Shown piece after piece: positions 557 to 64,000 of a stretch of 64,000 nt of DNA. The position numbers and the translations under genes were made by a program. Position 1 is the first letter of the stretch. Each line of letters opens with the position of its first letter. A model generated the notes under the pieces. It worked only from the letters and a program-made list of their open reading frames with translations. It had not been told where the DNA came from and searched no databases. Origin of the DNA: Bolinopsis microptera (Eukaryota; Ctenophora; Tentaculata; Lobata; Bolinopsidae); the NCBI RefSeq assembly GCF_026151205.1, contig NC_087074.1:8845726-8909725 (forward strand). Direction: 5' to 3'.

Positions 557-3500
557 TTAATCCTCTCGAATATGCACCTTAACAGTCACAGTCCCATTTA
601 TCTCTGTTGGGACTCCGTCGGGGGGGGGGGGGGGGGGGGGGGGGGGTACCAATGGCATAAATGGCATAATGGAGAATTGGCCAAGCAAAATTTCCATTTA
701 TGCCATGAAATTTCTATGCCATTTGACGATTTTTATGCCATTTGTCTCCATTTTATGCCATTCGAAATATGAAATTTTAAAACTTTGAACTGAGAATTTA
801 ATAACGAATAGTCTGCACCCTACTAGTACTGTCCACCTTTATCTCTATTTATTGTACTGACCCTGGTCATTAGAAACACCCCTAAAAGTTCGTTTTTTGA
901 CAAAAAAATTAAAACTTCTGTAATTTCATTTCTGTTTTTGTTACGCATTCGATTTTTGGTATGCGTATAGAAAATCGATACGGCTTTAAAATGAGATGTT
1001 CGGCGACCTCCTAGCTCACTCACTAGACTCAGTAGGAGTGATTTAACTGCGAGGGACAATTGAGGCTAACAAATTAGCCTCACCACTTTCAAAAAGGAAC
1101 TTTCTCATGTTACGTCCATGATATCCAAGTTGCAAGTATAATCCATAGTGATTATACTTGATCGAGATCTAAGCTTTAAATATTCGAGGTGAAAATGAGG
1201 CTAACAAGTATACGTTTGTGTATATTTTCGAGCATGTTCGGTATTGTGACTATCTAATGTGTCAACAATAAAAATGTATTCATCCTCTTCAAGTTCAACA
1301 TTTCAGAAATCGCAGAGTCTTCTTGTAGGAGGCCAAAATGAGGCTAATAAATGATTCGACCGCATTTTAAGTTTTAACTTTAATGTACGGAAACATGTTA
1401 TAGACCCACTATAAAACTTGTAATTGTAGCCTGAAGGTTATTGAGACTTTATCGAAACTTATGTGAGGTTGGATTGAGGCTAACTTCCCTCCTTGAGGCA
1501 AAATTGAGGCTAACAGATACACTACGCAGACAAACGTCACTGTGCCAGCTATCAAGTAGTTGCTGAGCAGCAGCAGCAGTTAGATGAAGAAAATGAAGTT
1601 GAGGAAGGAAATGTATTAGAGCTGTTGGCTAGAGTAGGCCCCTTACTTCTATGGAGCTCTCTGGCCAATTGCTCTGGCAATGCTCTCCATGGGGCCATGT
1701 AATATCACATGATCTGATATCATGCCAAATTAGACTCTAAACTATAAAGTATAATACAAATGGAACTGTTTGAGAAAAAACATTTTTCGTTACTTGGAAA
1801 GAGAATACTTACTCAACTGTCAGCATAACGAATCAGACGTACCTTGGTCCTTGATCTTATATGTACTTGTGACGGTCTTGTTTTGTATTTAACTCTGCTG
1901 AAGAAGCAATTCCCTAATGCTGAAATCGTCACTTATTACCTTGGAAGTGATCAGAATGAGCAGCTGTTTGCATTTATTCGGGTTTCTTTTTCATCTGGTC
2001 GCTCAAGAAATATGGATGCGATAACTATGGCCCATGGAATGGAGAGAAAGAATGTGTACAGTGCTTTATCATTACATGAAGACACATCTGCAATTGCACA
2101 TGCACGTGGAAGTACAGTTTTGCATCCTACAGTTCACCTAAAAAAGGTTAAATCTACTGGCCAAAGCAGAACGAGTGAAATGGACTGGTGGTATGATAAG
2201 CCTAGGCAAGTTGGCAAAAACGCTGGACAGGGCATCGAGGGACTGCATTAGAGAAGGGAAAAGAAACAATTTCCCTGTGTTCGCCGCAGTCGCAGATCCT
2301 GAAGAACGGAGTGGGAAGCCAATCGTCCATGGCCAAGAACTTTCTTGGGAAGCTGTAGATGATGAAGCTGGATGCCTCGAGGATGAGGACGACTTAGCTT
2401 ATGAGGTAGAACCTGGAGTTGATGATTGTGATGATGGAGAAACGATATCAACAGATAAATATGGAACACTATCCTTCCGGTCTTTTGAGACACTCACGCT
2501 CAATGGAGGAAGAAGCACTTTATCAACAAAATCTCGTCTTTCAAGATTCAAGGGGGACGCGTTTGGAGTGTCTTCTGATGTTCGCATATACAATCAACCT
2601 GAATGCGGATGTTCAACAGGTTTGAAAGCTGGCAGTACAGAAACTCTTAAAGTCTTCAAATCTCAGCAGGACTTTGCAACAGGAGTGGTTAGATTTATTT
2701 GTTATAAGTCATGCCCGATGAAGTACTACTGCCAGGAACATAGCCTAATCAATGGATCTCCTAATGTTTGGCTACTCGTCGAAGACAAATACATCAGATG
2801 CATTGTTCCTTGATGACATTCAAAATCGTTGTGTTGTCAATGTTTGTATTCTGTACATTTTGAACATCTCACAATTTGCTATTCTTGAATAGTGAAATGT
2901 TTGGTATATATTTGATATAATACATTTCTATTTTCTTTATTTAGTTATTTGTCATATGAATCTTTGACTTTAACGATCATTCCAAGCGTTATAAAGCATG
3001 AAACATGTCTCTTATTCAAGTACTAATAGTATTTGCGAATCTAAAGTCATCCTAAAGGTCAAATATGAAGACCTAAATTAATGGCATAAATTGGCATAAA
3101 TGGAGAATTGGCCAAGCTAAATTTCCATTTATGCCATGAAATTTCTATGCCATTTGACGATTTTTATGCCATTTGTCTCCATTTTATGCCATTGGTACCC
3201 CCCCTCCGTCGTCGACTGCTGCTTTTACTACTGATCCATTCTGGCGGCTTTCTTCATTTCTATTCCGGGTTTTGAGACCAACAGCAACTTTATTCTCATA
3301 GGATACATTCCTGCCTCTAGATGCTCGTCCCTTGTTGTCACGATTATCAAAATATTTATCTGTATCTTTATCTATATCTTTATCTACATCTTTATCTATA
3401 TCTTTATCTATATCTTTATCTATATCTTTATCTATATCATTATCTATATCTTTATCTATATCTTCCTCTACTTCGTTCTTTGTTATGATGTTTTTGTCCT

Positions 3501-6500
3501 TTTCTACACCACTGTCAGCTCCACTTGCATCTATTCGGATATTTATTTGATCCATTTCGTTAACCTTAGCTTTTGATTTATAATCAAAGAGGTGTTCGAT
3601 AACGCTCAAATAAATTCCTGGGTTGACAATTTTGGCAAAAATCATTTGAAAACGTGCCTGTAGAACGCCTGCCACAACATCGTCGTAAAGTAAGGGATTG
3701 ATCACAGAGTTGATCGGTAGGATCATCATGGAAAAGATACCATACCAGGGAGTGGCATCTAAAACTTCCAAAGAATGTAAGGCACAGATCACTGTGAAAG
3801 GCACCCAACAGCAAAAATCGGTGGTAATGATTAGTGCAATTTTCCTGTTAGTTTTGCGGTTTCTTTTATTGAGTTTATTATTATCAAGAGAGGATGCTAA
3901 CGTTTTTGAAGATTTTCTCGAGACAAGACCGATAACAATATAAGATAACGTTATGAAAAGAAAGCAGATGAGGTTAACTGCGAGGTTGAACCACACAAAG
4001 TATTTTTGGGGATCATCTTTCTTCACAAAATATTTGAAAAGGCAAACTCCATCATTTCCATAGAAATCCAGTTTAGTGACCATCAAAGTATGATCATCAT
4101 ATCCAAAATCATGAGAGAACATGTTCCTCACCATATTGATGATCATTTCCCAACTCAGGGTCATTTCTTTCATCCGTCCATAGTAAGCTTCAATGACTGG
4201 AAGAATGTTTTGTTTGTTTGGAGTTCCAATGAATAATTGGAGCTGGTCAGGAAACTTGAGTCCATTCACGAAGAAATCTTCTAAACCACGGTAAAATTGC
4301 AATAATTGCAGATATCGTGAATATGAAGGACACTCCAAGGACGACTCTGAGGCACTTTCCACGGCTAACTTCCCCGGGGGGCCTTAATGATTGTCTAATG
4401 CCATTCAGTCTGACTACGCTCAAACCTACCATTGAAAAAAGGGAAACTTGCGATCCAATTGTGCTAAGAACTCCGATTGTGGAACATTGGTAGCTGGTCA
4501 TCCATTCAATTTGATTTCGACAATAAGTCTTTCCAAAAATGATGGTGTCATAGGTTGCTACAACTAATAAGTAACATCCAACCAAAAGGTCACCAAAAGA
4601 TATGAGAATAATTAGAGATTTGTTATATAAAGCAACACTTGTTTTGCAACTTTTTAGAGCTCTGATGTTTCTTATTATGATAATCAGGTTTGTAGTCATT
4701 GCCAGTCCTCCTAAGAGCCATGTAGTCACTTTGAGGAAAAAAGTGTCTAGGATTTGTCTTGAGCACTGGTCATTGCATTCATCGGACTTATCTAAGCAAT
4801 CAAAATTACCATCACATTTACTAGTTTTTGGTATGAAACGAACGGAGGAACTACATTTGAAATGGTTACTACACGATGTCTCATCAGATGCATCTCCCCC
4901 GAAAATACTCATGGTCAGGAAAAATGAAGAGCTCTTTGACGCAGTTAACCTTGTCGAGGCTTGCGATGCTTCTGAGTCCTTTCATACAGTATGCTAGCCT
5001 CTTCAGGAGGCCGTTCTTCGAACTGGAGACAGATGTGGATATTGTTTGGGAACTTCTAGATAATGAACAAATCTTGTTCTCGTTTCCACACGTTTCAAGT
5101 CCGTCACAAAGTTGATTCAATTCCACGTAGCCGTTATCTCCTAAGAGACAGACAAAAACATTTTCGCAAGTTGTATCGCTGGTAACCAATCTATATGTCT
5201 TGCCCCTCCCACATGTTGGCCAAATCGCCAGTTCGTCGCTTCCATCTATGCAGTCTTGTACACCGTCAATTAACCAGGTTAAAGGCAATGTCAGCAAACC
5301 TGCTTTTCCAACTTTTATTTCGCAGGTGTTTTTGGTTTGACTGAGACATATTGGATGTAATTCGTCAGCATTGTCATCACAAAAACGTTTGTTGTCACAC
5401 ATCATGTGTTTGTGAGTGTAGCAGGATTTTGAAATGTTAAGACAATCACTTTCAATACGATCATCGCATACTGATACGCCCACAGCACAGATCATGTTTT
5501 TGGAAACAGTAGACTTGAATCCGTTTATGTTGCACGTAGCTCCAACCCTAGCTGGGTCTGTGCAATTTGTTTGAACTTCCTTCATGTCTGTGCAATAATA
5601 TTTATATTCTGCCAACTCCAAGTGATAAAATGTCACACATCTCGTAAAATTATGGATTGGCACCACAGTTTTCGAAAAGGATTGCACACATTTTTTCTTT
5701 GTATTTTCAGTAACTGTACAGTTGACCTCATCTGCTCTATCGTCACAATCTCTCGTTCCGTCGCATATCGAATTTGGATAAAGGTAGACAAATTCCCCAA
5801 AATATGTGCAATACATTCCATAAGTTAGGCCGTTACATATAGCCTCATCCTGGCAGTCTTCAACCTCACACCTATCATTACAGACAAACTTAGACTGAAC
5901 CACTAGTCCAGTTGGCAAGGTTGTCGTATCTGAACACCCAGTCTCATCGAGGTTTGTGTTTGTGCAGTCTTGAACGCCATCACAAACCCATCCCGATATT
6001 GCCAAATCTGTGAGGGTTACAACAGCGTTACTTCCTTTTTGGTAAAAGTCACACATTTGGTTTCCACATAATGTATCATCACTGTCCCTGTTCGTTATGC
6101 TATATCCTACAACTCGTCTGTCACAAGCTTGGTAGAAGTACGGATCCTCAGAGCAAGTTTGTCCATGTTTATATGGCAAGAACTTAGTACCAAGGTAATA
6201 AAACTCTTCAGAAGCATGGCACTTGTACTTCTCACCGCCCCATCTGTCATTTGAGCATCTGTACTTCAGAAACCCGCCATGTTCTCCAATGTGACACGAG
6301 TCAAGGTCATCTGAAAGATAATTGTCTGACATTTAGTTAAATCGAAAATAACCATAGCATAAAATCTCAGCCAAACTACTCTCATCTGACTACAATTCTC
6401 AATTCTGACTAAATCTAAATTTTGTTTTTAAAAGAGCTGAAGATCAACATGTAAATTTGGGAGAAAAGGGGCGGGGCATTTAAATCTAAAATGTATCGTC

Positions 6501-8733: not shown

Positions 8734-11700
8734 ATTCGACTAAAATTCGCTCTAATTGTGATTGGCGTTGAGAAGAATTATCCTAACAACGAGTACGCTA
8801 TGGCTAGTTTCGAGTTCGATCAAACTGGAGAATTCAGCGATAAAATAACTTTGCAGAGTGGCAGCGCATCTCTAACTTTTAGTTACAACGTGAGTTTTAA
8901 TTTGTAGGGAGGGAAGGTGCAAAAAAAACCGGGCCTTTTTAAAACTTTTTGAACGTTACGCCGCACTGTCTTACTATTAATGATTAAAGTACAAACATAA
9001 TTTTTTATTGGATGTTTTGTCGACAAAACATCCAATATTTTGCATTAAATTCTAAATTTAAAGGTTGATACTGAAACCAAGAAAAGCATTAAACCTAATT
9101 TGCATTGAACATAAATTACATTTAGGCGAGTTGTGCAGCAGATTATTACGGCACGTGCGACAAAATGTGTGTGCCACGTGACAGCCGCGCAGGACACTAC
9201 ACGTGTAATATCTCTACTGGAGATAGGATCTGCCTGGATGGATGGCGTGGGGAAAATTGTGATGCTGCTGATAGTTCAGGTAAAACAATAACAACTGACT
9301 ATACTTGTACTAGTAGTAGTGGGGGGGGTCCACGTTAAAAAAGTTAAATTCTAAGATCGAGATTTTGGAATTTAACATTAATTACTTTAACTTTTTTAAC
9401 TTTTTTAACATAAATTAAAAATCAGATTTTGGCTGACTAATCGGTTCAAATTTTAACATAATTACCCAAATTAAACTCAATTATGAGTGTTGATCTTTAT
9501 ATTTAGTACTAGTAGTACCTCGCTCTTGCAATTGTTTTCTGTAGTTGTAACTGATTTGATAACTCTACAAAAAAAACACCTTGTATCTATATATAGGGGG
9601 GGGGGGGGGGGGGGGGGGTGACATGTCTCCAATGTCTCCCGCACCTTATCTTTTCGAAAAAGACAACGACATTGGAGACATTGGAGACATTGGAGACACA
9701 GCTTTTGGAGACATTGGAGACATTGGGGTCATTGGGGACATTGGAGACACAGCTTTTGGAGACATTGGGGACATTGGAGACATTGGGGACATTAGGGACA
9801 TAAAATGGATATTAGGGGCATTGGAGACATTGGAGACACAGCTTTTGGAGACTCCTCCTCTTCCTCCTCCTCCTCCTCCTCCTCTTCCACCTCCTCTTCC
9901 ACCTCCTCCTCAGTCCTCCTCAGTCGTTCTCCTCCTCCTCCTGAGTCCTCCTCCTGGGTCCTCCTCCTCCTGGGTCCTCCTCCTCCTGGATCCTCCTCCT
10001 CTTCATCCTCCTCCTCCTCCTCAATCATCAGTCCTCCTCCTCAGTCCTCCTCCTCATCCTTCTCGTCAGTCCTCCTCCTCCTCAGTCCTCCCCAAGTCCC
10101 CCTCCTCAGTCCTCCCCCAGTCCCCCTCTTCCTCCTATTCAGTCCTCCTCCTCCTCCTCCTCAGTTCTCCTCAGTCCTCCTCCTTCTCAGTCCTCCTCCT
10201 GAGTCCTCTTCCTGAGTCCTCCTCCTGAGTCCTCCTCCTCCTCAGTTTTCCACCTCCTCCTCCTCCTCCACCTCCTCCTCAGTCCTCCTCAGTCGTTCTC
10301 ATCCCCCTCCTGAGTCCTCCTCCTGAGTCCTCCTCCTGGGTCCTCCTCCTCCTGGGTCCTCCTCCTCCTCCTCTTCATCTTCCTCCTCTTCCTCTTCAAT
10401 CATCAGTCCTCCTCCTCAGTCCTCCTAGCCTCATCCTTCTCGTCAGTCCTCCTCCTCCTCAGTCCTCCCCAAGTCCCCCTCCTCCTCAGTCCTCCCCCAG
10501 TCCCCTCCTCCTCCTATTCAGTCCTCCTCCTCCTCCTCCTCAGTTCTCCTCAGTCCTTCTTACGTCCTCCTCCTGAGTCCTCTTCCGATCCTGAGTCCTC
10601 CTCCTGAGTCCTCCTCCTCCTAGGTCCTCCTCCTTCTCCTCCTCCTCCCCCTCCTCAGTCCTTCTCCTCCTCCTCCTCTCTCAGTCATCCTCCTCAGTCA
10701 TTCTCCTCAGCCATCCTCCTCAGCCATCCTTCTCGGCCATCCTCCTCAGCCATCCTCCTCAGTACTCCTGAGTCCTCCTCCTGAGTCCTCCTCCTCCTCC
10801 TCCTCCTCCTCCTCCTCAGTCCTTCTCCTTCTCCTCCTCCTCCTTCTCAGTCATCCTCCTCAGTCATCCTCCTCAGCCATCCTCCTCAACCATCCTCCTC
10901 AGCCATCCTCCTCAGCCATCCTCCTCAGTACTCCTCAGTCCTCCTCCTCAGTCCTCATCCTCCTCCTCAGTCCTCCTCCTCATCCTTCTCCTTAGTCCTT
11001 CTCCTCCTCAGTCCTCCCCAGTCCCCCTCCTCCTCCTATTCACTCCTCCTCCTCCTCAGTTCTCCTGAGTCCTCCTCCTGGGTCCTCCTCCTCCTCCTGA
11101 GTCCTCCTCCTGGGTCCTCCTTCTCATAGGTCCTCATCCTTCTCCTCCTCAGTCCTTCTCCTCCTCCTCCCGAGTCCTCCTCCTCTTCCTCCTGAGTCCT
11201 CCTCCTGGGTCCTCCTCCTCCTAGTTCCTCCATCTTCTCCTTCTCCTCCTCAGTCCTTCTCCTCCACCTCCTCCTCCTCCTCAGTCATCCTCCTCAGTCA
11301 TCCTCCTCAGCCATCCTCCTCAGCCATCCTCCTCAGCCATCCTCCTCAGTACTCCTCAGTCCTCCTCCTTCTCAGTCCTCCTCAGGCCTCTTCCTGAGTT
11401 CTCCTCCTCCTCCTCCTGAGTCCTCCTCCTGGGTCCTCCTCCTCCTAGGTCCTCCTCCTTCTTCTCCTCAGTCCTACTCCTCCTCCTCAGTCATCTTTCT
11501 CCTCCTCCTCCTCCTCCTCCTCCCCCTCCTCCTCCTCCTCCTCCTCCTCCCTCTCAGTCATCCTCCTCGGCCATCCTCTTCAGCCATCCTCCTCAGTCCT
11601 CCTCAGTCCTCATCCTCCTCCTCAGTCCTCCTCCTCCTGGGTCTTCCTCCTCTTCATCCTCCTCAGTCCTCAGTCCTCCTCCTCAGTCCTCCTCCTCATC

Positions 11701-14700
11701 CTTCTCGTCAGTCTTCTTCATCCTCAGTCCTCCCCAAGTCCGCCTCCTCCTCAGTCCTCCCCCAGTCCCCCTCCTCCTCCTATTTAGTCCTCCTCCTGAT
11801 CCTCCTCCTCCTCAGTTCTCCTCAGTCCTCCTCCTTCTCAGTCCTCCTCAATCCTCTTCCTGAGTCCTCCTCCTGAGTCCTCCTCCTCCTCCTCCTCCTG
11901 AGTCCTCCTCCTGGGTCCTCCTGCTCCTGGGTCCTCCTCCTCCTAGGTCCTCCTCCTGAGTCCTTCTCCTCCTCCTCCTCAGTCATCCTCCTCAGTCATC
12001 CTCCTCAGCCATCCTCCTCAGCCATCCTCCTCAGTACTCCTCAGTCGTCCTCCTTCTCAGTCCTCCTCAGTCCTCTTCCTGAGTCGTCCTCCTGAGTCCT
12101 CATCCTCCTCCTCCTCCTCCTGAGTCCTCCTCCTGGGTCATCCTCCTCCTAGATCGTCCTCCTTCTCCAATCATACATCTACGTCTCCAGTGTCTCCAAT
12201 GTCTCCAATGTCTCCAAAAGCTTTGTCTCCAATGTCCCCAATGTCTCCAATGTCTCCAAAAGCTGTGTCTCCAATGTCTCCAATGTCTCCAATGTCTCCA
12301 GGACATGTCTCTGCACCCTATCTTTTCAAAAAAGACAAGAGACGTTGTAGACATTGGAGACATGTCACCCCCCTATATACACATAATTGTATAATTTACT
12401 AATATAATCATTCATATAATAGGAAAAAGCATGTCGGCCAACCACAAGTACACAGTAGTGGTCAATGGGTTGGAATTGCGGGACTGATTACAGGTAGTAG
12501 CGAATGCTATTGATGCCAAGTATAACGGGACGTCAGAAACTGGGAAGGAGTGGGCAGAGTATTTGGGGGATGAACATTACAGTCAGACTTCAGTCGGGAC
12601 CCAAGGAAATGGCTTACAGCCCGACCAATACTCATTAGAAGGGTGGCTGTCACGATATGGTCCGGAATGTTACACGGAACAGTTGGAAGAGGCGGGATTT
12701 GGATCACCCAGTAATTTCCAGTGTGTTCAGGAAAGTGACCTGGACAAGTTGGAAATATTTGACAAATGTCATCGGCTGACTATCCTGCATGCAGCCAAAC
12801 GGATCCTTATTAGAGGAGTAGCTAATATCGTGAAGGGAGAATGTTAGAATCCACGAAAATAACATCCCCTGGCCCTCCTCGTCAGGAAACACAGATTGTA
12901 TTGATACTTTTATAATGGACAATGGTACATAAATGAATTTATATATTTCTGAATAAGTTTCAATGTTCCATTTATTTAATATTATACAGCTAAATTAATA
13001 TTATTCAGCTAATTTATTAAATTACTTTTGCAGATATTTTAATTTTATTCTCTCGATAATTGAAAGGTTTTATTTTACCCAGCCTTGATATTGCTCGGTA
13101 GTTTTGAATTTCAATTGTTTTTATCATTTAATCAGTTTTTTAGTTTTCTTAAGTTTGTTTTATACAATTTAACTAGCATGTGGATTGGGCTGCTGTGATT
13201 ACTTTATTAACTACTAGAAAGCCCGTGGTAACAGGGACGAAGCTAGTAGTATTCTTTGAAAGAAAGTTTTAATCGCTTCAAAAAATATCCATCTCAACCG
13301 AAGATACAGCCGATTTAAATATAAAACACTTCAAAAGTTTAAACACAACGTAATTACCACAAAACCAATCAAAATGACGTTAAAACAATCTTTGCACGTG
13401 CATGTGTGCATTAAAACACCGTTGCTATGGAACCTTTTGGTTGTTACCTAAATTCATATTTTTCATCTAATTTGCACGTGGGCGGTCGTACAGACATACA
13501 GACAGAAACAATTCTTTGAATTTTAGTAGAGATGTAGTACAGTATCTCTGTAACCAGCGAGGTTTTTCCAAGACCTCTATATTTAACCAATATCCTTATC
13601 AGTTAAGCAGTTTTTTTTTTTTTTTTTTTTTTAGAGAGGCTGGGCCTGGTTGGCCCACGAGAGGATAGCATATGAATGCTTTGCCTACCTCTGGGGTATG
13701 GCAGTCCTGTGGGAGGATGCCAGTGGAATCAAGATGTGTAATCAAGGATGATGGTAAGTGTTGTGGGGTGTGTCATAGATAAACGCTTAAGTGGTGGTTG
13801 AGTGTGGAAGAGAGAGGCGAAATAAGACGGCGTTAAAGTAGTCGCTATGTTACACCTGTCTGGTCCAACTCCTCTGGCACCACTAAGCGTTTAGTGTGGT
13901 TTGTAAAGTTGACAATGGTGGAGATGTGTTGGTTGTCGAATATGTCATTGACAGAGAGGTAGTAGTCCCGGAAATATTGACCTCTTATTTGGGCAATAGC
14001 CGGGCACTGTCCGAGAAAGTGTGAGACAGTCTCCTCTTCGTCGCCGCATTTAGGACAAGCACTTGTGTCTGATTTGCGAATGGTGTGTAGGTGTTTGTTG
14101 AGGCCACAATGTCCCGTGATGAGGTGCACTGCAGTTCTATAATTTTGTCTGTTGTTACTGAGTGTAGTGTTGAGATTTTTGATGATGTTGATGTTTTTAT
14201 GTCCAAGTGTCAGTTTAGTGTGTCTGGGACCATCAGTAATCCATGATTCTTGATTAAGTTTTGTGACTTTGTCGTTGATCAGGCGTTTGATGTAAGATTG
14301 TGGAATTGGGCAATTCAAAGTGGATTCACTGGTTGTACCATTTTTGGCCAGCTCGTCTGCTTTTTCATTACCCCACAATCCAATGTGTGCAGCTATCCAT
14401 CTGATCTCTAAGGTGTTAGTGGATCCGAGTGTATTGAGGGTGTCGTAACAGTCTCTAGTAGTCCTACTCCTCGTTGAAGGTGAGGATATGGCTTGAATAG
14501 AGGAGAGACTGTCTGACCATATGATGATGTGTGTGTTTGTATAAGTTGATAGATATTTGCAAGCTTCGATGATGGCAGTGAGTTCTGTTTGATAAACGGT
14601 GCAATAATCGGGAAGCTTGAATGATCTTTCATCTAGTGTAGTGTTGTTGTTGTCTGTGGTGATAATATAACCAGCCCCGCTACCTGAGTCTGTGCGTGAC

Positions 14701-22455: not shown

Positions 22456-24766
22456 TATACATTATTAAACTGATTAAAGTGGCTTTTCAAGCATGCTTTA
22501 GCTACGCCAATATTAATGGGTTTTTAAGCTCGCCTATTTATATTCTAAGAGGTCTTCACCAGGGTAGTCCACTGTCTCCTATTCTCTTTCTTATTGTGGC
22601 CCAAACTTTCTCGAATAAAATTCAGATTAATCCTAATATCAAGGGTCTTAACATATCAGGTGTGGAAATCTTACAGAGTCTCTTTGCAGACGACACCGAT
22701 CTGTTTCTAAAATCTTCAATTGAAAGTGTAGAGGCGGTTATGACAGAACTCAGAACTTTTGCTCAGTGCTCGGGGTGTAAAGCTAACATCGACAAAACTA
22801 GATGTATTCCTTTAGGTCGAGCTCGTCTTAATACAACTCTACTAGAATCCCTTCAAAGTTTATACGGCTATGATTTTATAACAAACAACTTCACCGCTTT
22901 GGGTATAGTTTATATGAACGATGGCTCACTGATGGATATTGTCAACAGTAATTATAATGATAAATTGATTAAGGTTCAGTCTTGGATAAACCGATGGAGC
23001 AAGAGGGATTTGACGCTTATGGGTAAATGCACAGTCATTAAAACCCTTCTCTTTTCCCAATTAACATACCTTGTTTCTCCTCTCCCTCGACCGGATGCTT
23101 CCTTTATCAGAATCTTTGACACGGCTATTTTCCATTTTCTTTGGGGTTGCAAACGCGATAAAGTAAAACGTGAGATTATTACCCGAAATAAGGAACATGG
23201 AGGCCTGGGACTTTTTTATTTATCTGATTTTATTATAGGTCTTAAAACCAGCCTCATATCCAAGCTACTAAATAATTCCTTTCACCACACTTGGAAAGAT
23301 ATTATGATTATGCAGCTGAAATTTCCTGACCATATCACCATCTCCGTAGAAAACGGTCTCGCTAAAACCAACTGCCATTTTACTCAAGACGTCCTTAATT
23401 GTTACACTGAGTGGAAGATAAGTTCGGTAAATGCAGCCTTGGGCTCTATTGATCACTGCGTGTGGTACAACCAAGCAATAACCGACATCGGGGCCAAACT
23501 TTGGAACAATCATCTGATTGATAAGGGAATATTTTACATCTCAGATTTTCTTTCTATAGACCAAAGTACAATCCTTAACTACGATATGTTCATTAACAAG
23601 TGGGAGTTGTCTCCAAATACTATTTCCAAAACTGAGTACTGTAACATTATCATGGGGATACGGAGATATAACTGCCCCACTATTAACTCAAGGAATATTG
23701 AGTTTGTTGACTCAAATATAAAACTTAAATTTTTACATTCTGTAACTGGACAGGTGAAGGGAAGTAAAATTCGGGATAAAATGTACGACTCTATCTGCCC
23801 AAACGAGCTGTCCCCATTACGTCAATGGGTTATTGACCTAAATAATCAACCAATAGATTGGGCGGTCGTTCTTAGCAACCTATTTTTCTTAGTATCTAAA
23901 AGTTTTAAGTTGATTCAATTTCAGTACAAGCTTTTAATGAGGATCACGACGTGTAGATACATGAGACACAAAATGAAAATTGTTACAGATACTCCCATGT
24001 GTAGCCTGTGTAACACATACTTAGAAACAATCCCTCATATCTATCTCCATTGTATCCACACAAATAGCTTCATCACAATACTTGAAGACTTTATAAAAAG
24101 GAAAATCGATAGAAATTACAAAGACCCCAATAAAATTAATTTTATAGTTTGTAATCACACTTCACAAATTATAAATTATTTTAATATTGTTGCCAAATGG
24201 TACATTAGCAAAAGATTTCAGGCAGGGGACATGCCAATCTGGCAGGGATATATCAAACTTCTTAAACTTTCACTTACTGGTGACAAAATAGGCCACAAAA
24301 GTTCTATTGTGTCGATCTTGGCCGATTAGGGCAAATTGTCCACCCCATTTATATTGCTGTCTTTGTTATTTATTATCAATGGTTATTGTTACTATCCTAC
24401 AGTACTACTAACTGTTTTTTTGTAGTACATGCCCTGCTTCCTTCCATTCCTAAACTACCTTACAAGCTCTTCCTCTTTTACACCCTTTTCAATCACTTCA
24501 TTTCACTCATTCACTTCATATCTTATTACCACAGTATCTGCCAAAACCAACATGGCCTATGTGGAAGGGGGCCTTGACGTTGTTGACAACTTGGCCCTGC
24601 ATCCCAAGCTGACGGTCGGCCTCCACTCTCTAAAAACATACCTTCAGTGAAGGCAGATGGTCAGCAAATAGCGATGCTAGGGCTTGGTGTGAACAAATCT
24701 TGACCTACTTTCACACCTTAGGGACGACCCCGGGGAGGGCCCCATTGGTTTTAGTAGGTTGCATTT

Positions 24767-45100: not shown

Positions 45101-48100
45101 CCATAATTTCGTCGAAATTTCATATAGGTATCCTCGCGGTGATCCTCGTGCGATCCTCGTGGGATCCTCGCGATGACACCAGAAACTGCCTACATTTGTG
45201 ACAAAAGTGCAAATTTACCAATTTTGATACGCTGCGCGCAAGGAGAAAACCCTCGCGATACCCTCGCGAGGATGGCCATGGAAATGTCCAATAATTTCAT
45301 CGCGAGGAAATCATCCTCGTGGGGAAATTGTGCACGATGATGATTTACCCTCGCGAGGATAGGTATTTGCGCGAGGATTTGGAGGCAATATTCGAGGAAT
45401 TTATGGAAATCGTATCCTTGCACCCATCCTCGTTCATCTTTCATTGGGCATGGAACAGGGGTGTTACGATGCTCACAACAAGTTATTCGACAAACAAGAA
45501 AGGTGGTAAAAAGTGGTAAAAGTGGCAAAATGTGGCCTGAAGACACGTGGAAACTACATCACGGATCGGGAAATTGAGCGGCCATCCGCAAAAGAAAAGC
45601 GACCGCAATTTCTTGTTATCGTTGGAAACAATCGTTTAAAACGATTGTTAGCACTACCTAATACAAATATCAGCCCTTCATAAATTATTCAACGTTCATT
45701 AAATTCATAATCGCCAGACCGTTGAGTGAACGATTTTTTTGCTCTTATAATTATATTTGTTTACCTGACCGTATTTTCTTCTGCTTTTTATTTTTCATAA
45801 GCTCATTTTGTTTTTGGAAATTTCCGATGAAATATTTATGTTACACTAAATTCAAGGATTGAATAAGCTAAATTCTAAAGATCTCGACTCAATAAATCAG
45901 GTGGAACGAGAATGGAGGTCAAACTTTCCATCGCACTACTGATGGTCTTAGTTCAGTGCATCGTCTGTCAAGGTAAGATGATGTTTGAAATTGAATGAAT
46001 AAAATATACCTAATAATTGTTAGACTGTTTCTATTTCAAACCCAGCGAGTTTCTCTTGTAAACAACTCAAGTCCTGTGAACACACATATTAAAAATAATA
46101 TGTCATCATTTGTAGGAAACAGCTAAGGCGTGCACAAATTTAATAAATCTAACCGCGCACAATTTTAAACGTGCAAGTTCGTACGTTTAGTGCTTCTATG
46201 AGTACAATTTGATTGCCTTTATTAAATGCAGGACAGCGGAATTATACATGAATTGATGCTATCATTATTAACTATTCATGCAACACTCAGTAGTACGTTA
46301 CTTTACTCTATCAGGTGAATTCAAGATAAAGTGGTTTTCTAACAGAACATGTGGTAAATGGTATCCCCTCTCTGATGGCAGTCCTGCTGAGTGTGACCCT
46401 GATGGGGAGAACCCGTGTTGTAGTACGCGGGATGCAAATGGAAAGTGGGATGGAAAGTGTGGCAACACAACTGAGTATTGTTCTGATCCGGGCGGTGTTG
46501 ACTACAGGGTAGTGGATGGATTGAGAAATTCAAGAAAACATTGTACAGTTACGATAATAGGGGGCTTCCTTAAAAATGCATGTTTTAATGAAAAAAGGAA
46601 ACAATACTACTTCAAGTGTACCCACTCTGATGTGTACTTTAACCTGACTTTGAGGGGCCATTTCAAGGACGTTACTGCAGTTTGTGAGAACGATCCCCAC
46701 GTGTATCAGGCGTGTGGGTTCAATACACAAATAACGAACACGGATGTGCTGTGTGGAGGCTTGTTTTGCGATAAAAAATACATCAGATGTGATAAGAACT
46801 GCAGTGTAGATAAGAATTGTCCTGTATCACAAATCAATAAAACGCCTGACCCACCAGAGGTCACTGCAAATAGTTATGTTACTACTGCTGCTTATACCGC
46901 TACAACTATTAGAGAGTACTCAACTACAGAGATATGTAATGATGAATGTGACGACTCCGGTGACGACACTATTTGTATGGACGAAAGTGATTGTAACGGG
47001 TATAAATACGGAATTAACTGTACGTATTCGGGGAAGGACACGTATATTCCTGTAAAATGGATATGTAACGTATACAGCATGTGTGATGAAAGAGAGGATG
47101 AACAGGACTGTAAAGTTACAGAAAGTACCCCACACTCTTGTACACATTACTACAGTAAAGTGTCGTATAAAAAGACTATAACAGTACCAATATTCAACTA
47201 TACTAGATGCTCTGCATTTGATATAACGAGTATATATCCTTATAAGAGAATAATATATCCATACTGTCTGAACTATTTAGACCAGACTAACTGTTCTGAT
47301 ATAGAGCGAGTAGGGGGTATTGTTCTATTAATGGGTATAACTCGAATGTTTCTAAGTACATGTTGTGTTATGAACATGATAAGAAGACTAGTTTACCAGT
47401 TAAGTTATGTGACGATGACGTTCAAAACAACTGTTTATCACCGTCTACTTCCATTGATTGTAGAGTACACAAACACAGGATGTGTGACGGAGTGTGGGAT
47501 TGTCCTGATGGAAGTGACGAACTTAATGACATGTGTGAATACATGACGAAGGAATTTCAATGTGTCCGTAGGTTTAACTTTAAAAGTATGAAGTTCGGAA
47601 TACCAGTTTCTTGGATAATGGACAATGTGGTGGATTGTATGGACGGGTTAGATGAACATATTGTGAACCAGAGTTTCTGCGGCAACAGAACTGACAACAG
47701 CTATCGTTTTAAACAAAGTGATGAATCTTGCAAAAACGTATATTTGTGTTCGAAAGGTGATAAACCATATTACGTTCAATACGAACAACTTTGTGACGGA
47801 TTGGAGACGTGTGGTGACGGTGCAGAGAATGAGGTTTGTAGGATCGCTAGGGATTTCCCAAAGATCAATAAGACCGCTCTTCATCATGGAGAATTGCTAA
47901 ATGTATGCAGTGACTCTAACTGTGAAGTAAAAGAGTTCATACGACCCTGGATTGCAGATGTATTCGGAATAAAAAAGTTAAAGTTAATTGTTCCGACCTC
48001 TAAGGTTAATTGCAGCTATTTGTTTGGTGAATATTACCTGTTTCTCAGTTGCATGGATCTATGTCTAGATGCCTCGTGTCCTCTACATAAAAATAGAACA

Positions 48101-51100
48101 TTGTTGTACGATTCATGTCCTGAACAATATCCTGACCGTGTATATACACTTGCTAACAACTCTTTTCTGACGTTTGTTGAAAAGTCAAAGAAAGGCCAAT
48201 ATCACCAGAACTATTTTCAATGCAATAACAGTAGATGTGTGGAATACAAGCAAGTATGTGATCTCATAGATGACTGTGGGGACATGAGTGACGAGTTAAA
48301 CTGTGCAAATCACATGATTTGTGAAAACACTTTAAAGTCAAATAAACATCAGTTTATTTCCTTATCGCAGAGATGTGACGGCATATACGATTGCTTTGAC
48401 CTCTCAGATGAATGCAATGACATTTGTGGGAAAAGGATACTTGAAAACTTAACACTGCAGATATCATCTTGGATAATGGGGGTGCTAGCATTGATATTAA
48501 ACTCGTACACCGTATTCAGTGGAATAAAAACTATAAAGCATAGTGGGAATGAACGTATTTTAGCTAACAAGGCCTTGATCAGTCTAATCGGGTCAGGGGA
48601 TCTGGTTATCGGACTATATTTAGTTCTTGTGTCCTTCTATGATAGTTTTATATATGGAACTGGGTTCTGCAGACATCAAGCCGAATGGTTAACCGGAACA
48701 ACATGCTCCATATTAGGGGTCATCAGCACAGTTGGATCACAAGTCTCCCTTTTCGCAATGACAGCCTTGAGTGTCATCCGAATGTTCTGGCTTACTTTTA
48801 ACTTTTAAGCAAAAGAGTATTCCAGGCCCTGCAAACAGAAGCTCTGTTGTCAAGCTCGCTTTCCTAGCAACGGGAATCATCACCGCATCCCTTGCTATAG
48901 CTTTTATACCTTTGATATCTTCATTGGAGGAATACTTTGTACAAGGAATGTTTTATGATCCCATCTACAAATTTTTTGTCGGCTTCCCCAACAAAGAGAA
49001 ACATGTTGAAGTTCTTCAAGCTCAATACAATACCACAAACATCACTATGGATATAACCTGGAAAGAAATCGGTGACAAAGTGGACGGTATGTTCACTCAG
49101 CAATATGGACTTTTTAGTAGACGTCCAGTTCATTTTTATGGAAATGACGGTGTCTGCTTATTCAAGTACTTTGTTCGGAGTAACGATGCAAGAAGAATCA
49201 GGCAATCAGTAGGAAGTGGAGTTAACATCAGCGATCATAAAGGAGATCTTGTAGTTTGGCTGATGCTTGCCATGAACTTGGTCTGCTTCATTATCATCAC
49301 TTGTTGTTACATAGTCATCAATATCCAAACCAGAATATCTTCACGGAGATCAGGACAGGATCAAAACCCCGCTAGAGTAAGGGTAAACAGGGCTATACAG
49401 AACAAAATTACTATCATAGTTGCTACTGACTTCTTATGTTGGGTTCCCTTTACTATCATAAGTGGTATGCATAATATGTATTTAATTGATGCGACTAATT
49501 GGTACGTTTCTTTTGCCATGATAGTTCTCCCCCTTAACTCTGTTATAAATCCACTGATCTACGACAAGACACTAACAGAGTTCCTCGGAAGAAAGTTGGT
49601 GGAAATTAAATTAATTATCAGACTACGTGTCTCCATGGTTACGGAACTTATTCGGACGAGAATGGGTGGTGTAAAGAGTGTGAACAACGAGCTAGATGTC
49701 ATACAATCGGAACAGGAGGATCGAGAACTTTCAAATCATGTACTAGCTGAAACAGCAAATCTGTGAATTTATCTGTGAAGATTGAAGGAAATATCAATGA
49801 AAAGGATCATTCGATGATAAAACAACAACATTTTATAATAGGTACTTTAATTAGAGTGATGAGATGAAAACTTTGATTCATCTTATTGAGAGACCCTAGA
49901 TCTATTTTACATCTTTTAAAGTTTTAACACTCTGAACTCTTACTCTTATCATATTATTAGCTGTTTGTTTCTTAGCCAGTTTTTTCGGCGCAGGAAGTTG
50001 GTTGCTTATTGGCTGTCTCGTGTCAAAACAATATGGTTGTCAAATCTGAGTATCCATCACTAGTATCCATAAAGAAAATGTCAGGCTGTATAGTGGGATC
50101 CGGTATTAATGCTGCCTGGGGAGCCCCCAGCATAGTTTCAGCTATTGTTTCACTGCGTTCACATGCTGGCGCGTGTTTACTAACCTCACGTTCGCTCGTC
50201 GTGTTCTAATATTGGAAAATATCCAGATAGAACAAGAATTGCGCCTGTTGTTTCGTTTTGGCGGACGCTAGATTTCCATTTCACATTTACTATAAATTTA
50301 AGTATAAGCTCCAATCAGCTCACTTCAATCTTCATGATATTAATATTGATAAATTATGCATCAAATTGAAATACGGGAAACACTTGAAATTCAGTTCAAT
50401 TGCCGTAGAACTTAACTTGTATCTGTAATTCAAGAAATTATCAGCAAAGGTAAACTATACTCGTGTACACATCAATACACTACGCGTGCCACGTACAAAT
50501 TGGGCGTATTACCTAATAGTAATATTATACATTACATGCATCATATACATTAAAACACAGTCGCGCCGCGCATTCGTAGATCACAGGCTATCTATACATC
50601 ACATCTCCGCAAGCAATCCTCGCGCGCGCGCAACTTTTTCGTTGCATGGTAACGGACGTAAGGAAGGAAGGACACACGACATATTCAAACCCACCTATCT
50701 CGTTCTCCAAAATCCACGTTTTTCTGCAAAAACCTCCATTCGTAACCTTTCACTATTGCCTTTTTTCAAAAGGGTGAAAAGGAAAAAATTGTCTGATTGC
50801 AAAAAGGAAGGTATATAATGCGATCAGTAAGCTCTTTCGCGTAAGACAAATTATGAAAGGGCGCACAAATAAAAGGGTGGCATAAGATTCGCACTTATGT
50901 GACACTTATGTGACACAGTTGTGACACAGTTGTCAAATGTCGGAGGATATATCTAGGAACAGAGATTAAAATCGTTACTAGGAAATTGAATAGACTAACC
51001 GTGAGCTTTCAAGTTGCTGGACGAGTTCTTCTTTTTTCTTCACAGTAGATAAAGATTCTTCCTTGTTGATATACGACAGTATATCAGCCTGAAATTTTAG

Positions 51101-60990: not shown

Positions 60991-61389
60991 ATCTCTTATT
61001 GCTCGTCGTGGGTACAGAGGGAAGAAGATTGACATCAAACATGAGACCCTTCTATCAGAAGTCTCCTACAACCTCATCCCTGCCCCGATGATGGAGTAGA
61101 TGATATTTCAATGAAACTAATAAATCAATGAAACTAATTTATTAGTTTATATATAAAATAGAGTTTTAATACTTTCAACACTACTATATAACAAATAATT
61201 TGAGGTATGAGATATGATAGACGAGCGTAAGTGTTGACGTGCAAAGGACTGCTGTGAGTGTACTTGAAGATTACTCATCCTCCACCTTCTCATCAAAACT
61301 ATTCTCATCAAAACTACTATCTAGACTGAAGGTATTGTGTTTACAGTGTCTATTGTGCTTCTGAACATTGAACTCTTGATAATATAACT

Positions 61390-63272
61390 ATGTCAAATAA
61401 TCAGAGCTCAGACATTAGTCTCCACTCTTGTGAGCGCCCTTTAGAACATTTGAACTTTTCATTCCAGTCTGAAAAATCAGAGAACTGTAACAATTGTCTG
61501 TCAAAAGACATCAAGATTGACTTTTTAGAAAAAAAGTTGTCTTTATTGAATGAAATTATCAGAACTAGTGATCTCATTGCTCAGTACAATGATAGTCTCA
61601 TATCAGATCAAACTCAAATACAAGAACAGAGTTTTAAGTGTGAAAATTTGCTGCCAAACTTATCAGAGGAGATTGAATGTGAGATCATAACCATTACCCC
61701 TCAGTCACACGTTGTTATCAATCAAGTAGAAGCGTTTGATGTAGATGACATTGTTGTGGAAGATGTTGTATCGGACAGTTTGTTTGTTGACAACGATGTC
61801 GTGGACAAGGTTGTTCCACAGGAGGTTGTTGGAAACGAGATTGTTATCAGTGAGATTGTTGTTAACGAGGTTATGGCAGACGAGGATGATGTGTCTGATC
61901 TCCCTGTATCTACTGCTACTGGTGAATCACGGATCAACACCCCTAAGCCCAGAGACAAATATCCAAACTTGGTCCCTGCCCCTGTCTACGATCCTATAAC
62001 ACCGGGGCCAATGAATATATCTGTAACTTGTTCCCCATCACCAGTGAAACCAGTTACCCTACTAGATGATGGTCCATTCTCTAATTTTTCACTTGATCTA
62101 TTAATGGAAGAACTTGAGTTCAGTCACGGTTTTAAAAACCGGAAATCGGTTTATTTTGGTGACTTTCCCTATGAGTATTCAGGTGCAACACATGACCCAA
62201 AATGTGTACACAATGATTCCTACCTTGCTAAACTCAGCTCCTACATTAATGTGATATTACCCAATTTCAGACACAATAGTATTCTCGTCAATCTATATGA
62301 AACTGGAGCAGAGTTCATGCCAGCTCATAGCGATTCTGAATCATGTATTGTAGAACACTCTGATATTGTAACCATTTCACTTGGTGCGACGAGAACACTG
62401 CAAATTAGATCAAACGGCAGCAATGAAGTTGTGGGCTCTGTGCAGCTTCAGCATGGAGATGTCTTCATCATGTCCAAATTGTCTCAGGCTGACTTTCAAC
62501 ATGAGATACTGCCAGACGAAATGTGTGATGAACCCCGGATCAGCATCACCCTAAGACTGATGAAGCCCCCTAGGATCACTCAGTCAACTGAGTTTGGTCT
62601 GCGTTCACCGCCCCCACCCATCCCTCACTCAGGACACAAACTGACAGACTCTTCTTCACCTGCACTCTCAGTTTGCAAACAGTCAGCTAAAGCTTCACAA
62701 AAGTCTGTCCTATTCATAAGCAGCTCTATGTTCAGGTTTCTTGATGCGGACAAGTTATCATCGTCCACTGTTAGTGCTAGTAAACTGTTTTATCCTGGGG
62801 CTGATGCCAAAGTAATGTTAAATAAACTAAAAACTGACCTACACTCTGTTCCATCCCCATCTATTATTTATATTATGACAGGAACTAATAATGTGAACAC
62901 AGTCTATTTTGGCTCAAAGTCACTGAAGGATGCAGCGGGTGACATTAGTAATCTCTTAAATTATCTCAAGTCAGTGTATCCGAATGCAACAATTAATGTT
63001 CTCAATATTCTTCCCAGGAGTACAAAAGGCCGCAATGATGTTGTGGCAGAGCTGAATAAGGGTATTAAGGATATGTGTAGCAAAGATTCTTGTTTTAATT
63101 ACATTAGCACCCATAATTTATTTAACTATAAAGCTATAATAGAAGTGGATTCAGGAAAGAATTTTATTTTGCCAGACCATCTGCAAAAATATCTGATAAC
63201 TGTCACCTCAATACAAGCGGTGTTATTCGACTTGCTAAATTTCTGAAGTATTGGGCCCATAAGCAAGTTTGA
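61390..63272 (+). CDS. LINE ORF1: AlkB-type dioxygenase fused to SGNH esterase
   Basis: ATG at 61390 opens a 618-residue frame. Residues 40-75 are coiled-coil-like. An acidic, Val-rich region (about 115-170) follows. Residues about 235-392 are an AlkB-type 2OG-Fe(II) dioxygenase: YFGDFPYEYSGATHD, iron ligands H313 and D315 (MPAHSDSE) and H371 (FQHEI), and the 2-oxoglutarate Arg pair in RISITLR (R383, R389). After a Pro/Ser linker, residues 437-600 form an SGNH hydrolase (LFISSSMFRFLD for the GDS block, IYIMTGTNN). The frame misses the SGNH end. In the next frame, after an A5 run near 63185-63190, CHLNTSGVIRLAKFLKYWA supplies the block with the catalytic His and stops at 63270-63272, so a one-base indel is likely. 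Known relatives are the esterase-bearing ORF1s of CR1-type LINEs. The AlkB domain is the surprise. It may repair or demethylate the element's RNA or cDNA (inference). Confidence 0.88.
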
Positions 63273-63421: not shown

Positions 63422-64000
63422 GCAGCATAAATTGGAAAAATTTTCATGCTCTCACAGCAGTTCTTGCATTAACCCGTGCATTAGTAAAATCACAGTTTCA
63501 TACCATGCCAAAAAGCTTGCAGTGGGACATTGCAACATGCAGGGAGGACTAACAGGTATGCCAAAATGTCTTGAAATCCAAGATCTAATCTGGAAAGAGA
63601 AATTAGATGTTTTATGCCTGAATGAAACAAATCTTAAATCGGATATTGACTCAGCCAGTCTAAACCTACCCAAGAATTTTACTTTTATCCGCAAAGACCG
63701 TCCTAACGACAATGGTCATGTGGGATGTGGCATTCTCATCAGTGAGCACATAAAGTTTAAAATGATTCAACTAAACTTAGTTTTGCAATATGACCAAATC
63801 GAGGCTATTTGGATCCATCTTACAGATTGCAATATTTTCATCTGCTGTTTCTACAGATCTGAGTTGTTTAGTCCTCTTGACAAATTTTTAGATTATATGA
63901 CAGACTGCATGATGAGTATAGGAAGTAAGAATGTTATTTGGCTGGGTGATGTAAATGTAGACCAAAACAACATCAGCAGTATGAACTATAAGAAATTAGA
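63422..64000 (+). CDS. LINE ORF2: APE-type endonuclease (truncated by window end)
   Basis: The frame is open from after TAG at about 63421 to the window edge. It reads KKLAVGHCNMQGGLTG (N-terminal block), LDVLCLNETNLKSDI (catalytic Glu), HVGCGILISEHI, IFICCFYRSELFSPLD and NVIWLGDVNVDQNN (GD-N block). No ATG precedes the domain; the first Met is the one in CNMQGG. Initiation by re-initiation or another route is therefore needed, or an upstream indel hides the start. The reverse transcriptase should follow beyond 64000. It is collinear with ORF1 and separated from it by about 150-200 bases, as in CR1/L2-like LINEs. Confidence 0.85.

Follow-up and report, generated by a model that had tools for sequence, protein, structure and literature searches.

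A ctenophore LINE whose first open reading frame joins an AlkB-type dioxygenase to an SGNH hydrolase domain

What would an AlkB-type dioxygenase do in a retrotransposon protein, and is such a protein the property of a lineage of elements or the accident of a single copy? The question is raised by a long interspersed nuclear element (LINE) in a 64,000-nucleotide stretch of the genome of the ctenophore Bolinopsis microptera (contig NC_087074.1, positions 8,845,726 to 8,909,725), here called the window and numbered from its first letter. A first-pass annotation, made from the letters alone, had described open reading frame 1 (ORF1) of this element as a complete AlkB domain fused to an SGNH esterase. 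Our analysis finds AlkB beside SGNH in many related elements, and we give about an even chance to the reading that the window ORF1 is an esterase (type IV) LINE ORF1 with an additional ALKBH2/3-type dioxygenase that would repair the nucleic acids of the element.

The window element lies on the forward strand. Its 5' leader, common to sibling copies, spans 61200-61389, where the 5' limit of this copy is approximate, and ORF1 follows at 61390-63246 (618 amino acids in one frame), with the order coiled coil, disordered linker, AlkB, linker, SGNH. In an AlphaFold2 model of the protein (mean predicted local distance difference test score, pLDDT, 71.9), residues 34-80 (61489-61629) form a long N-terminal helix, a coiled coil by analogy (pLDDT 80-87 in its core and 62-68 at its ends), and a disordered stretch comes next. 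The AlkB domain (residues 216-395, 62035-62574; pLDDT mostly 94-98, with one block at 84) matches PF13532 with an E-value of 4.1e-18 and a score of 66.7 bits (cut-off 31.2), and carries the complete AlkB-type 2OG-Fe(II) dioxygenase ligand set (HxD...H, RxxxxxR). The ligands H313, D315, H371, R383 and R389 lie where the first-pass annotation had placed them, and none of them varies across an alignment of 34 rows; E317 completes an HxDxE motif. The SGNH domain (residues 438-580 within the frame, 62701-63129; pLDDT mostly 87-98; S446, G470, N500) is harder to see by profile: its Pfam match (PF13472, E 0.0022) is under the cut-off. A sequence search of the PDB gave ALKBH3 at 1.3e-14 and ALKBH2 at 2.4e-6; the LINE esterase ZfL2-1 (4c1b) came in at just 0.36. 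One SGNH profile from the family (A4) reached 2hsj (E 6e-5) and 1fxw (E 0.0012), with 4c1b at only 0.12, and another (A5) reached 6njc (E 2e-5) and 4c1b (E 0.00097); in the structure comparison the match list was filled by AlkB chains and held no SGNH chain.

Downstream, ORF2 begins near 63432 with an apurinic-type endonuclease, as the first-pass annotation had noted, and runs out of the window (63432-64000 lie inside it) to G000:C3:8912174. Its listed start is TTG, and an in-frame ATG first appears at codon 36. Read within the window, the endonuclease is under the Pfam cut-off; the extended frame of 1009 codons contains both the endonuclease and the reverse transcriptase that had been expected beyond 64000 (RVT_1, E 1.1e-35). 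The element thus has the layout of an esterase (type IV) ORF1 LINE, with a predicted coiled coil and SGNH in an ORF1 upstream of an endonuclease-reverse transcriptase ORF2. Just 3' of it (locus L009, 7637-10000) is a frame with a Ty3/gypsy-like reverse transcriptase, RNase H and an integrase-type zinc finger.

The window copy itself is imperfect. Its frame shifts shortly upstream of the last SGNH motif, D-x-x-H, which therefore falls outside the 618-residue frame, in the domain end at 63130-63272; this is why the first-pass annotation extended ORF1 to 63272, past the stop at 63246. The claim of AlkB and SGNH in a single ORF accordingly stands for the presence of both domains, and for the final motif it fails in this copy. 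The siblings are in better condition. A DNA search of the 264.65-Mb assembly with the window ORF1 returned 38 matches, namely the window copy, 25 spanning positions 1-1854, a further one spanning 1-1843, and 11 that are partial, and the 26 other near full-length copies are 98-99% identical to it. A genome search with SGNH, in which the best 150 of 206 candidates were scored (in one further search, the best 150 of 766), finds ORF1 open in 20 of these 26 for 630-632 codons, through D-x-x-H, while the match of the window copy stops at residue 144 of 181. Three siblings examined at their ends have a sharp 5' boundary in common and differing flanks, as expected of new insertions; siblings match each other for about 35 bases further upstream than the leader of the window copy before diverging, and the 3' region common to the three is incomplete in the window copy, which lacks its final part. 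Given the frame change, the lost 3' part and the 98-99% identical siblings with open frames, the window copy is probably dead and its LINE family probably young and multi-copy.

The combination of domains recurs across the family. Among the 88 near-full SGNH matches in the same search (spanning at least 170 of the 181 residues without stops), 79 are preceded by AlkB at a distance of at most 1.5 kb. The remaining nine belong to short frames (214-325 codons), and for three of these AlkB lies 2.3-5.3 kb upstream. A first protein search, with the 7988 best-sharing candidates scored, gave 67 proteins, 66 with PF13532, and one with a profile of a PHD-bearing type gave 93, of which 91 have PF13532. 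The named hosts are Mnemiopsis leidyi and Bolinopsis microptera; a bacterial bin (P0116) is named as well, and we regard it as contamination. An alignment of AlkB ligands was entered with 187 rows, including two human and four host-type AlkBs, and 183 were counted after leaving out P0159 and P0160 (no AlkB match) and P0143 and P0048 (short match): H, D and E of HxDxE are present in 183 of 183, and the 180 domains that extend over the distal H and the two R have these residues without exception. In class A, the type of the window element, S446, G470, N500 and the final D-x-x-H occur in 63 of 63 SGNH rows (62 database proteins and the sibling copy L029). Agreement with the class A majority residue is lowest in the linker at 396-437 (0.33, against 0.55 and 0.57 for the two enzyme domains; 31 rows). 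In class B (100 rows, with covering rows counted) the corresponding figures are S 96/96, G 96/96, N 95/96, and D and H 91/91. Both domains are also present in a 537-codon relative (L041-L043).

Evidence of maintenance comes from the ratio of nonsynonymous to synonymous divergence (dN/dS; Nei-Gojobori, pairs with dS below 1.6 and at least 8 differences). Same-class AlkB values are 0.04-0.31 overall, apart from one weak pair considered below: within class A, 0.15-0.16 for L016 against the L023 group (dS 1.3-1.4), 0.21-0.31 for L034 against L023, L032, L033 and L035, and 0.16 for L024/L037; within class B, 0.17 for L019/L020 and 0.17-0.23 for L027/L038/L039; 0.04 in class C and 0.11-0.29 in Helitrons. 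Same-class SGNH values are 0.05-0.32 apart from two pairs. With dN/dS well below 1, AlkB is apparently maintained in these elements, and the test of purifying selection named at first pass did not refute the proposal. These results bear on the idea that the AlkB-SGNH frame is an assembly join or a functionless one-off fusion, to which the frame change and missing distal 3' part of the window copy lend some color. The 67 and 93 protein clusters come mostly from other records, the siblings have differing flanks and dN/dS is low, and we put the probability of a join or one-off close to nil. For the family, assembly join, one-off fusion and decay of AlkB are all rejected on the 26 near-full siblings, the 79/88 linkage, which upholds the initial view of an AlkB-SGNH LINE ORF1, and the low dN/dS.

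How widely is AlkB distributed among elements of this genome? A search with PF13532, scoring the best 150 of 587 candidates, gave at least 151 matches; 19 of the loci were taken with flanks, together with the window element (the L-numbered loci). Class A comprises L009, L016-L018, L023 and L024. In class B (L019, L020, L025, L027) ORF1 reads PHD-type zinc finger, AlkB, SGNH, followed by an endonuclease-reverse transcriptase ORF2; the PHD matches are weak, under the Pfam cut-off, and in L019 and L027 SGNH was found by the class A profile and missed by Pfam. In class B2 (the first ORF of L021, and L022) AlkB is present and SGNH gives a weak match or none. Class C (L026 5291-7621; L028 5271-7799, reverse strand) is a further LINE ORF1 type with AlkB first, a long linker and a doubtful SGNH, which is matched at E 0.0079 in L028 and goes unmatched in L026. 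A frame in L021 (4259-7267) uniting endonuclease, AlkB and SGNH was considered as a new ORF type and rejected; it is probably an AlkB LINE nested in ORF2 of another.

Class D (L010-L015) consists of Helitrons, whose domains are strung along a single giant frame, up to 3388 codons long, in the order SGNH, AlkB, DUF6570, Helitron_like_N; L010 lies at G000:C10:16870001-16879999. Helitron_like_N (PF14214) is found in L011-L013 and also in the L010 and L014 frames. The contig of L015 gave no PF14214 match in the genome scan for Helitron_like_N, and L015 was placed here by 60-83% identity to other class D members over 316-486 residues. PF14214 and PF05970 (PIF1-type helicase) occur together in four proteins of class D architecture from other records (P0161-P0164), of which P0161-P0163, as called, start downstream of the SGNH serine. 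A GDS block, GTNN and a D-x-x-H motif were seen by eye in L010-L015, outside the aligned counts. The genome has 41 matches to Helitron_like_N (51 of 51 candidates scored), and at least nine of them, in eight elements, have a same-strand AlkB within 5 kb, counted against the best 150 of 587 AlkB candidates, so that the rest may have AlkB too.

The AlkB phylogeny called for at first pass places these domains together. In a tree of 45 rows, the AlkBs of classes A, B and B2 and of the Helitrons form one clade (support 100/97) apart from host ALKBH2 (L001, 207 bits to human ALKBH2) and host ALKBH3 (L002, 139 bits); an earlier quick tree of 70 rows gave the same clade an SH-like approximate likelihood ratio (SH-aLRT) of 94, unstarred. 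With class C included support is 85/60 only, and class C AlkB, on a separate long branch, is possibly an independent capture. The element domains group inside neither ALKBH2 nor ALKBH3 and sit near the latter, and we therefore call them ALKBH2/3-like rather than an ALKBH3. At another locus (L003, 1063-1950) a second ALKBH3-like frame stands beside host ALKBH3, and a later frame there has a weak SGNH match (E 3e-4).

The best tree nests Helitron AlkB inside class B (B+D 100/98). Neither a LINE-only clade without Helitrons (p 0.218) nor class B alone (p 0.206) is rejected by the approximately unbiased (AU) test, and transfer may have run either way. Domain order is SGNH-AlkB in Helitrons and AlkB-SGNH in LINEs; simple capture of a single block is therefore insufficient as an explanation. 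The LINEs are themselves divergent: in the internal ORF2 tree set, identity is 49-54% within class A and about 23-32% between A and B over the aligned parts. Nothing is drawn from one row of that set, L025 1116-4079, which contains a full endonuclease of its own and could belong to a different element. The window holds another frame with RVT_1 and zf-RVT (22479-24329), in sequence not close to the ORF2s of AlkB LINEs. From this distribution we tentatively suggest, at a little less than an even chance, that the SGNH-AlkB pair is a toolkit common to unrelated LINEs and Helitrons, repairing their single-stranded intermediates, and that AlkB has passed between the two.

What, then, would AlkB act on? 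The best fold matches of the predicted domain are ALKBH3 on single-stranded DNA (ssDNA) and ALKBH2, at about 21-30% identity, with comparison scores of 22-24 against about 16 for ALKBH5 and FTO. The HxDxE active-site motif is typical of ALKBH2/3, and both human rows of the alignment (ALKBH2, ALKBH3) have it. On this fold and motif we favor repair of lesions of the 1-methyladenosine (m1A) and 3-methylcytidine (m3C) type in single-stranded RNA or DNA over removal of N6-methyladenosine (m6A). Oxidative demethylation of the element's own RNA or cDNA, or escape from m6A/m1A marks, had been suggested at first pass; with an ALKBH2/3-like AlkB and HxDxE in 183/183, the m6A part is not supported in the form given. 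In the mechanism that we propose, the coiled coil would multimerize the ORF1 protein (ORF1p) around element RNA, as in ZfL2-1; SGNH would tie the particle to lipid or deacylate a partner; and AlkB would strip Watson-Crick-face methyl groups (m1A, m3C) off the element's own RNA, single-stranded cDNA or DNA, where such lesions would block reverse transcription or replication. LINEs go through RNA and cDNA, and Helitrons through ssDNA. With a single-stranded intermediate common to both, one repair role would unify them, and the spread of the element AlkB clade to further LINE lineages and to Helitrons makes an RNA-only explanation less likely.

Several points weigh against repair. A fold like that of ALKBH2/3 is no proof of substrate, and since the element AlkBs form their own clade, not nested in ALKBH3, the substrate may have changed. 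The Pfam scan of the window ORF1 shows no RNA recognition motif (RRM), zinc knuckle or other RNA-binding module. Finally, some dN/dS values are higher: 0.47 (L024/L037) and 0.48 (L038/L027) for SGNH within a class, on eight differences each; 0.62 for AlkB in L036/L040, a weak pair without class, on nine differences; and, across classes, 0.42-0.64 for AlkB and 0.60-0.76 for SGNH, in saturated pairs.

Without an RRM or zinc knuckle something else in ORF1 must bind RNA, and AlkB could have been retained only as the nucleic-acid-binding fold of ORF1p, its chemistry not needed; the ALKBH3 structure was solved with ssDNA bound. The Fe and 2-oxoglutarate ligands, not required for binding alone, are invariant, and we regard this explanation as very improbable. 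AlkB homologues act on diverse substrates, and the frequent pairing with SGNH hints at a joint pathway, so that AlkB might instead target something else together with SGNH, be it a protein, a lipid-linked molecule, tRNA or mRNA, or a pool of host RNA, with effects such as higher translation or weaker antiviral sensing. Its closest homologues work on nucleic acids and ORF1p is the ribonucleoprotein (RNP) protein of LINEs; this alternative is unlikely, if less so than the preceding one.

The main rival to repair is escape from host silencing, in which AlkB erases m6A on element RNA, or N6-methyladenine (6mA) or other methyl marks on element DNA. In the parts of the two papers available to us, an orchid Ty3/gypsy AlkB is an in vitro demethylase resembling m6A erasers (PMC9289625), and TET/JBP enzymes in 11 lineages of fungal DNA transposons, Helitrons included, are explained as silencing escape (PMC12730594). 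The spread of AlkB across RNA- and DNA-moving elements would also fit a common host mark. The orchid enzyme is, however, ALKBH5-like, whereas the ctenophore element AlkBs are ALKBH2/3-like with HxDxE, and a title and abstract search on 6mA in ctenophores yielded no ctenophore study, its single result being a review on gastropods. Escape therefore seems to us rather doubtful, a step above the other-target alternative.

Other features of the window stand apart from the element. A 2.3-kb degenerate, pyrimidine-rich tandem array at 9852-12150 (13-base unit repeated about 180 times, 71% matches) shows extreme strand skew, and at 3184-6332 (reverse strand) and 47360-49766 (forward strand) low-density lipoprotein (LDL)-receptor class A repeats and a rhodopsin-type receptor occupy adjacent open frames.

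If repair is the role of these domains, mobile elements encode their own nucleic-acid damage repair, it can be tested whether alkylation or methylation of bases in their single-stranded intermediates limits transposition, and an early-branching animal phylum offers a case of one enzyme domain common to LINEs and Helitrons. The AlkB-ORF1p is in addition a natural fusion for biochemistry.

Both halves of the fusion have precedents, esterase ORF1s and dioxygenase-bearing transposons each being already known from the parts of the papers available to us, to which the comparisons below with published elements are likewise limited. A literature search over titles and abstracts, with most subscription journals outside its scope, found no AlkB LINE or AlkB Helitron among the papers listed (in two cases the first 20 of 189 and 15 of 73), and the parts of the cited papers available to us describe neither. 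SGNH or GDSL domains recur beside other elements, as in texim beside fish Helitrons (PMC4021074) and in GDSL ORFs of bdelloid LTR (long terminal repeat) elements and Penelope-like elements (PMC5408684), much as SGNH is seen here in LINEs and Helitrons; the word "oxygenase" does not occur in the main texts of those two papers. Like the ctenophore LINE, the orchid (Phalaenopsis) Ty3/gypsy element is a retroelement with an AlkB dioxygenase; it differs in being an LTR element with an additional, separate AlkB ORF that is ALKBH5-like and associated with m6A, and SGNH goes unmentioned in the part available (PMC9289625). In the fungal DNA transposons and Helitrons a 2-oxoglutarate dioxygenase has likewise moved among element classes, with TET/JBP instead of AlkB and in fungal hosts (PMC12730594). 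With human ALKBH3 and ALKBH2 the element AlkBs have in common the predicted fold, the ligands and HxDxE, and differ in their low identity and separate clade. The closest parallel in layout is the type IV ORF1 of L2/CR1 LINEs such as ZfL2-1, which has an N-terminal coiled coil and a C-terminal SGNH (PMC3905857, PMC4120745). A survey of 448 elements reports esterase ORF1s in vertebrate groups only, whereas the present host is a ctenophore, and its main text contains neither "AlkB" nor "oxygenase" (PMC4120745). The ctenophore ORF1 resembles this type in its coiled coil, its SGNH with S, G, N and D-x-x-H and its downstream endonuclease-reverse transcriptase ORF2, and differs from it in the AlkB domain placed between coiled coil and SGNH.
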